This document shows, piece by piece, positions 25,479 to 31,379 of a stretch of DNA of 64,000 nucleotides. The notes under the pieces were generated by a model. The model did no database searches. It was not told the DNA's origin and saw nothing but the letters and a program-made list of their open reading frames with translations. Where the stretch lies: the NCBI GenBank assembly GCA_005862285.1, contig SZXW01000014.1, forward strand, positions 1 to 64,000. The letters are read 5' to 3'. Every line of letters starts with the position of its first letter. Position 1 is the stretch's first letter. Source of the stretch: Chlorobium sp. Lineage in GTDB: Bacteria > Bacteroidota > Chlorobiia > Chlorobiales > Chlorobiaceae. The position numbers and the translations under genes were made by a program.

Positions 25479-29055
<3,577 letters not shown>

Positions 29056-30094: not shown

Positions 30095-30775
30095 ATGTTG
30101 ATTCCTTTTGTAAGGTCCGATCTTGAACGGAATGACAGATTTTCTTTCTCCTGCAATCGCTGCAAGCTATGCTGCCGTGCAAAAAAAATCCAGGTCAATC
30201 CTTACGAAATTGCCCGTATTGCAGGAAACCTCGGCATTTCAACAACCGATTGCATCCGGAAATACACGGTTGAAAACGGTTCATACCTGAAATTCGATGA
30301 AAACGACACCTGTCTTTTCCTCGGCCCGGAAGGCTGTGCCATCCATCGTGACCGGCCGCTGGTATGCAGGCTGTACCCTCTGGCAAGACATGTGAACGAC
30401 AGGGATATCGAATGGTTCTCGGAAATGGAACGGGAACGTGAATGCAGGGGCGTGTGCGGAACGGCTGCAACCATAGAAGAATATCTCGACGAACAGGACA
30501 CCTGCAATTATATACAGACGGCGAACCGTTACCTGAAAGTGCTCTGGGAAATGATGCATGTTCTCGATGAATCTAGGGCTTCCGAAAACAACCCTGATGA
30601 ACCCGATGAAAACGGTGCCATGGAAAACCAACCGGATGAAAACACCGTATGGACGGATATGGATGCGGCTGTAAAAAAATATTGCATGGAAACCCGCTCA
30701 GCTGTTCCGTCGAGTATTGAGGAAAAAATGCGCATGCACCTCGATGCGCTGCTCTTATGGACTAAACCATCATAA
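30095..30775 (+). CDS. YkgJ-family CxxCxxCC cysteine-cluster protein
   Basis: 226 residues. The N-terminal 125 carry the YkgJ/CxxCxxCC signature: C20-x2-C23-x2-C26-C27 (FSCNRCKLCC), then C73, and C81-x9-C91 with the typical RPLVCRLYP ending, plus C117 and C121. The family binds an iron-sulfur cluster or zinc and includes FliB, the lysine N-methylase of flagellin. The C-terminal 80 residues are acidic and low-complexity (ENNPDEPDENGAMENQPDEN), then helical. The next gene starts 15 bases downstream behind a strong Shine-Dalgarno and encodes a lysine-periodic secreted peptide, so a modifier-substrate pair is possible. That is inference. Confidence 0.82.
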   Translation: MLIPFVRSDLERNDRFSFSCNRCKLCCRAKKIQVNPYEIARIAGNLGISTTDCIRKYTVENGSYLKFDENDTCLFLGPEGCAIHRDRPLVCRLYPLARHVNDRDIEWFSEMERERECRGVCGTAATIEEYLDEQDTCNYIQTANRYLKVLWEMMHVLDESRASENNPDEPDENGAMENQPDENTVWTDMDAAVKKYCMETRSAVPSSIEEKMRMHLDALLLWTKPS

Positions 30776-30790
30776 AAGGAGGATCGGCAC

Positions 30791-31069
30791 ATGAACAAAA
30801 CGACAAAAAAGGCTATGGCTCTCGCTGCGGCTGTAACTTCGCTCGCCACTTCGCTCGGAGTAGGCACACTGGAATCCCAGGCGGCTGTTGATCAGGCAAA
30901 TCAGCAGGGAGAACAGGAAAAACTGTCAAACAATCACAAACTTCCCACCCAGGGCAAGCTCTCGACCCAGCACAAAATTTCAAGCCAGCACAAAACATCC
31001 AGCTTTCTGAAAACATCGAACCAGCAGAAGACATCAAACCAGATAAAGTGGGAACAGCAGGGGAAATAA
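30791..31069 (+). CDS. Secreted lysine-hexad repeat protein, 92 aa
   Basis: Not recognised. Preceded by an AAGGAGG Shine-Dalgarno at 30776-30782, 8 bases from the ATG, unusually strong for this window. Residues 1-32 form a signal peptide (basic NKTTKK, hydrophobic ALAAAVTSLATSLGVG, likely cleavage near SQAA). From residue 44 the chain is a degenerate hexapeptide repeat with lysine at 44, 50, 56, 62, 68, 74, 80, 86 and 92: KLSNNH, KLPTQG, KLSTQH, KISSQH, KTSSFL, KTSNQQ, KTSNQI, KWEQQG. Other positions are Ser/Thr/Gln/His rich; there is no cysteine. It is probably co-expressed with the YkgJ gene 15 bases upstream. Confidence 0.75.
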   Translation: MNKTTKKAMALAAAVTSLATSLGVGTLESQAAVDQANQQGEQEKLSNNHKLPTQGKLSTQHKISSQHKTSSFLKTSNQQKTSNQIKWEQQGK

Positions 31070-31379
31070 GCCTGAACAGCAAACTCCGGAACCGGCCTTC
31101 AGGCAGGGAAACGGTTCCGGAGGATTGACTTGCTTCCGTTCCATCCTGTTTTATTCACATCTGCAAACCAGGCTATCCGCTCTCTTCTCAACAGCTGAAA
31201 ACTTCATATTTTACCTTTCACAGCAAATAAAAATATCATCACACAATAATCAGTATTAATATCGTTAAAATATTCAAACTAATCCCTAAATTAATTAGGT
31301 TATAGAGATGGATTTCTTATAATAGCAACTCATTCCGTCTCGTAAAGAGATAAAAACAAACAGCTAAACACCCAGTCCG
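31070..31379. other. Gene-free interval with a strong inverted repeat
   Basis: No coding sequence is seen. CTCCGGAACCG at 31084-31094 and CGGTTCCGGAG at 31112-31122 form perfect 11-base arms with a 17-base loop just after the lysine-hexad gene; there is no T-tract, so it may be an mRNA 3' stabiliser or weak terminator. The rest (31190-31330) is AT-rich and contains the short palindrome CCTAA-ATTAA-TTAGG near 31285, probably the modD promoter region. Confidence 0.55.

Follow-up and report, generated by a model that had tools for sequence, protein, structure and literature searches.

A CxxCxxCC protein and an exported-looking lysine-hexad peptide form a candidate RiPP-like unit in Chlorobiaceae

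Introduction

FliB is a [4Fe-4S] SAM lysine methyltransferase that acts on flagellin in the cytosol before export, and its CX4CX3CC motif binds the [4Fe-4S] cluster (PMC8598068). Bufferins are RiPP precursors that bear Sec signals (PMC12452194). Proteins of the PF03692 type are widespread (9 of the 14 bacterial and archaeal control genomes contain them), yet they are almost uncharacterised: in the literature searched, FliB is the only such protein with a described biochemistry, and no paper linking CxxCxxCC or YkgJ proteins to RiPPs or peptides was found. Here we describe a two-gene locus in the window, the whole 64,000-nucleotide stretch of Chlorobium sp. DNA that was analysed, in which a gene for a CxxCxxCC protein is followed by a gene for a small peptide with a lysine at every sixth residue. 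We put the probability at about 0.55 that the two genes form a RiPP-like unit in which the CxxCxxCC protein covalently modifies the hexad lysines of its partner before Sec export.

Organisation of the two-gene unit

The CxxCxxCC gene occupies positions 30095 to 30775 of the forward strand and encodes a protein of 226 amino acids with the motif CNRCKLCC (PF03692, E 4.3e-12). As the initial annotation had stated, it ends 15 bases before the peptide gene, and the gap between the two open reading frames (30776 to 30790) contains the strong Shine-Dalgarno sequence AAAAGGAGG that had been assigned to the peptide gene. The peptide gene (30791 to 31069, same strand) encodes an exported-looking product of 92 amino acids, in which the leader or putative Sec signal (30791 to 30883, residues 1 to about 31) is the most conserved stretch of the family and the lysine-hexad core extends from 30920 to 31066 (residues 44 to 92). 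The inverted repeat with 11-base arms that was said to close the unit is located on the forward strand at 31084 to 31122, with its arms at 31084 to 31094 and 31112 to 31122. Inspection of this hairpin 3' of the peptide gene reveals no T tail; its folding z is -2.05, and its arms are partly kept in the sister genome (G301, locus L002). The unit is flanked by genes for an ABC ATPase and a quinolinate phosphoribosyltransferase. A 512-residue open reading frame (27517 to 29055) that lies upstream of the ABC ATPase gene resembles by eye an FAD-dependent oxidoreductase and has no Pfam match at E 0.001.

The lysine-hexad peptide

The nine lysines of the peptide stand at residues 44, 50, 56, 62, 68, 74, 80, 86 and 92, at the exact spacing of six that had been claimed, and every lysine of the 60-residue mature part falls in one phase of six, with none outside it. 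In 200,000 shuffles of the mature part, runs reach six at most, and at none of the periods from 3 to 12 do the other open frames of the 64-kb window give a run longer than four. The hexad consensus is [ST][NST]Q[xIH]Kx, and the C-terminal sequence is SNQIKWE. TRF finds no tandem repeat in the DNA, and so the DNA repeats are too diverged for a tandem-repeat call and the phase is kept at the protein level; an origin of the periodicity in a fresh DNA tandem-repeat expansion is thereby rejected. The N-terminus resembles a Sec signal in its K-rich n-region, its hydrophobic h-region and SQA↓A, in keeping with the signal peptide read earlier from the sequence, and the family leader MNKxTKKAxALAAAVTSLGASLGVA is well conserved in an eight-row alignment. 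An AlphaFold model of the peptide is disordered (mean pLDDT 54), with a leader helix at residues 3 to 21 of low confidence, and it shows no solenoid fold. The peptide has no match above cut-off in NCBIfam or Pfam.

The repeat is conserved in relatives. In the eight-row alignment (A1), the only invariant residues of the mature part are K68, K74, K80 and K86 and the W87-E88 pair that follows the last of these four hexad lysines. At position -2 of the hexad lysines, glutamine is more frequent than any other residue, though variable, and the core varies in copy number and length across the family, whole peptides measuring 75 to 137 amino acids. The mature parts of 11 peptides together contain 118 K and 5 R, no Cys and 0 to 4 His each; the partner enzymes at ten of these 11 loci contain 87 K and 163 R, and for large proteins encoded nearby in the window the counts are 198 K and 213 R. 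Since arginine would serve for charge, a K:R ratio of 118:5 argues that lysine itself is selected, and the lysine epsilon-amine thus seems to be needed. Among features readable from the sequence, this bias is the strongest hint that the lysines are chemically used.

The CxxCxxCC protein

The window protein passes the curated cut-off of PF03692 with 47 bits against 23, seven relatives from two clades score 43 to 51 bits, and it is the sole PF03692 protein of its genome. Alignment of the Chlorobiaceae subfamily gives eight invariant cysteines, C20, C23, C26, C27, C73, C81, C91 and C117, with C197 listed besides them. A C-terminal extension carries a DMD..P..H..W motif, and D188, D190, P205, H215 and other residues of this extension are common to the second clade described below. 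The AlphaFold model is confident (mean pLDDT 84), and a search of the PDB by sequence and by fold gave no solved relative and no detectable SAM-binding fold. By analogy with FliB, the protein is probably a small iron-sulphur enzyme. Between the window and its closest relative (G301), dN/dS is about 0.4 for both genes, a substitution pattern by which purifying selection is acting on the enzyme and the peptide alike.

Pairing and inheritance in Chlorobiaceae

The window's GTDB family (Chlorobiaceae) was surveyed in 86 genomes with a peptide profile built from eight homologues. The profile matches in 13 genomes, one of which (G114) holds a relic, and so 12 genomes carry the peptide; in one of them (G264) a frameshift or sequencing error interrupts the gene and the repeats continue in another frame. 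Each of the 12 peptide genes immediately follows, on the same strand, a gene belonging to a single PF03692 subfamily (A2, E < 1e-100), with gaps of 13 to 25 bp where measured and a G-rich Shine-Dalgarno sequence in the relatives, and none of the 12 genomes has a peptide homologue lacking the cysteine-cluster neighbour. Conversely, a near-full-length enzyme is present in 14 of the 86 genomes, 12 of which also have the peptide; the other two are G145, with an intact enzyme, and G201, with a C-terminally truncated one. The co-occurrence has a Fisher p of 6e-13, calculated with relatedness ignored.

Some losses affect both genes together. In G114 and G090 a single deletion at each relic locus (L044, 1354 to 1707; L063, 1381 to 1557) has removed the middle of both genes and fused the enzyme's N-terminus to the peptide's C-terminus, and in G090 the junction is in frame; G305 retains a relic of the enzyme. 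The distance matrices of enzyme and peptide correlate with r 0.81, a value reached in 0 of 1000 permutations, which vertical descent of both genes would equally yield. The enzyme and the peptide are strictly paired, co-inherited and co-lost. The flanking genes, named in part by eye, differ among genomes (an FkbM methyltransferase and a peptidase, or a lysozyme-like gene, with a glycosyltransferase adjoining the relic loci), indicating that the pair persists as its surroundings vary. At six loci (L005, L006, L008, L009, L025 and L041) the unit faces a gene for an ACR3-like transporter of the SBF family, behind which an ArsC-like gene lies wherever the locus extends far enough; the window has no ACR3-like neighbour. 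Features of the RiPP type are thus present, namely a short precursor gene adjacent to and inherited with a putative modifying-enzyme gene, a conserved leader, and a core that varies in copy number and length.

A second clade and wider searches

The homology surveys covered one phylum, collections of plasmids, phages and viral sequences, and one pattern scan of species genomes. The subfamily is also found in family f44, from a different class of this phylum, where three genomes contain four loci (E 1e-35 to 2e-49), and at all four loci a different short leader-bearing protein is encoded directly 5' of the CxxCxxCC gene. These clade-2 peptides have the leader (S/T)RRESLK(R/K)xAGALALGxGAP and an invariant FYK. 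A third, weak copy of the leader peptide lies in G231 (L102, C1:3861459-3861731, E 2e-10). G355 contains a fifth strong copy of the clade-2 peptide, around which no CxxCxxCC gene occurs up to a distance of 1.5 kb. There, on the minus strand of L103 (4027 to 7350), the leader peptide (SRRESLKR...) is followed by genes for an Asn synthase (PF00733, E 3e-48) and an HPr-kinase-like protein, with a short open reading frame between them. This short frame looks by eye like a lasso precursor (DLGTLHTLTEGG; PAVMDLGTLHTLTEGGG). The combination of Asn synthase, precursor-like frame and HPr-kinase-like gene is the make-up of a lasso-peptide cluster. Since a clade-2 peptide may be accompanied by a CxxCxxCC protein or by a RiPP cyclase, the CxxCxxCC protein may likewise be a peptide maturase, and the recurrence of the subfamily beside other exported-looking peptides, together with the lasso-like context, points to a role in peptide maturation. 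Comparison of the leaders gave no support for homology between the Chlorobiaceae and clade-2 families. Given this result, and because the clade-2 peptides lack the hexad, the two clades may differ in chemistry.

Plasmids, phages and viral contigs yielded just generic or weak PF03692 relatives; one match on a Klebsiella 'plasmid' has redox-enzyme-like genes around it, and no small peptide was seen there. The phylum-wide peptide search gave only weak low-complexity matches outside the family, such as a KDQQQN repeat. A longer cysteine-cluster protein of about 256 amino acids with CX5CX3CC recurs in Chlorobiaceae (L045 to L056) as a separate subfamily, near frames that look by eye like DsrE and a respiratory membrane subunit.

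Proposed mechanism and alternative explanations

From these observations we infer a course of events that runs from the partner as substrate and lysine as target, through the cluster type, SAM use and the methyl group, to the final function. The cytoplasmic CxxCxxCC protein would bind a metal cluster, probably of the [4Fe-4S] type if FliB is a guide, and would recognise the newly made peptide through its conserved leader or signal region. It would then covalently modify the side chains of the core lysines, most likely by N-methylation with SAM, the modified peptide would be exported by Sec with removal of its signal, and the decorated polycationic peptide would act at or outside the cell surface. 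The parts of this scheme differ in strength: the hexad peptide is probably the substrate of the CxxCxxCC protein, the balance tips slightly towards lysine modification, and methylation, favoured by the FliB precedent, is the more tentative choice.

Maintenance of the pair in several different genomic contexts, in the same order and on the same strand, counts for an enzyme-substrate unit. The earlier proposal that the first gene modifies the lysines of the second product is therefore retained as the best explanation of the 12/12 pairing, the hexad conservation and the selection of lysine and not charge; methylation is its more conjectural part, the protein lying far below the FliB cut-off. Several observations count against a RiPP-like unit: the intact enzyme without a peptide in G145, the lack of a dedicated protease or exporter within the unit and, where lysine modification is concerned, clade-2 peptides that are not lysine-repeat proteins. 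The lack of a detectable SAM-binding fold and the weak FliB match count against SAM methylation of the peptide.

It is possible, if unlikely, that the CxxCxxCC protein modifies the peptide with a different chemistry or on different residues, as in lysine hydroxylation or in cross-linking to give a cross-linked or cyclised peptide. The glutamine preference at position -2 makes a K-Q cross-link a candidate, and the invariant KWE end offers another site; the fold of the CxxCxxCC protein is without a known relative, and the clade-2 enzymes have partner peptides of different sequence, which leaves room for a reaction other than lysine methylation. On the other hand, the invariant mature residues are limited to lysine and W-E while the glutamine position varies, and the one characterised cysteine-cluster relative, FliB, methylates lysine (PMC8598068). 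The two genes could instead be operon partners only, with an unmodified cationic peptide that is antimicrobial or binds surface polysaccharide and a CxxCxxCC protein that aids, for example, its folding or export. This is a doubtful reading: a polycationic, low-complexity peptide without a fold and a patchy distribution with losses fit it, but charge alone would permit arginine, and the same enzyme subfamily recurs next to other exported-looking peptides. Least probable is the metal-handling pair that the initial annotation offered as its alternative, with the CxxCxxCC protein as a carrier or sensor in metal or stress handling and the peptide as a cationic accessory, perhaps in arsenic export, since this reading is weakened by peptides without any Cys and with 0 to 4 His, leaves the selection of K over R unexplained and lacks ars-like neighbours in other contexts, the window included, despite the name of PF03692 (putative zinc- or iron-chelating domain) and the ACR3-like SBF transporter and ArsC-like protein that adjoin the unit in several relatives.

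If the unit does alter the lysines of its peptide before export, the modification would be of a type new to bacterial peptides, RiPPs would gain a lysine-based, cysteine-free, Sec-exported class, and green sulphur bacteria would turn out to export a modified peptide that had so far escaped notice. Given a small dedicated substrate whose gene lies 15 bp off, two short genes would suffice to test the reaction of the fold.

Comparison with known systems

The chances are about even that the subfamily represents a new class of RiPP maturase and that the product of the Chlorobiaceae unit is a Sec-exported peptide in which every sixth residue is a modified lysine. Among PF03692/YkgJ-type proteins, the window protein clearly belongs to the domain family (E 4e-12), but its subfamily is distinct in having the C-terminal extension and in being tied to a secreted peptide; the generic PF03692-like proteins of Chlorobiaceae differ from it in length (256 to 258 amino acids), in their CX5CX3CC motif and in their neighbours. 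The unit resembles lasso clusters through the G355 homologue of the clade-2 partners, which adjoins the Asn synthase, the HPr-kinase-like gene and the lasso-precursor-like frame, but the Chlorobiaceae unit has no Asn synthase and other chemistry is expected. With bufferins and other MNIO RiPPs it shares a short precursor, a Sec-signal N-terminus that probably doubles as a recognition leader, and an adjoining metalloenzyme. Bufferin-type precursors are, however, Cys-based, whereas the mature hexad peptides have no Cys, and no MNIO (DUF692) or DUF2063 gene stands beside the window unit between its ABC ATPase and quinolinate phosphoribosyltransferase flanks; membership in this group is rejected for lack of an MNIO neighbour and of Cys motifs in the precursor.

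FliB had been named among the CxxCxxCC proteins, but its motif is CX4CX3CC (PMC8598068), in contrast to the CX2CX2CC of the window protein and its relatives. The FliB model (NF038110) has 373 positions against the 226 amino acids of the window protein, and at a cut-off of 85 bits the window protein gives no match and one relative reaches 13.5 bits, in the cysteine domain only; the window protein, being shorter, with other Cys spacing and far below cut-off, is not a FliB. The FliB substrate is flagellin, and the Chlorobiaceae unit contains none. The likeness to FliB lies in a cysteine-cluster enzyme with eight conserved cysteines and, by analogy, in a substrate that would be exported after modification of its lysines in the cytosol.
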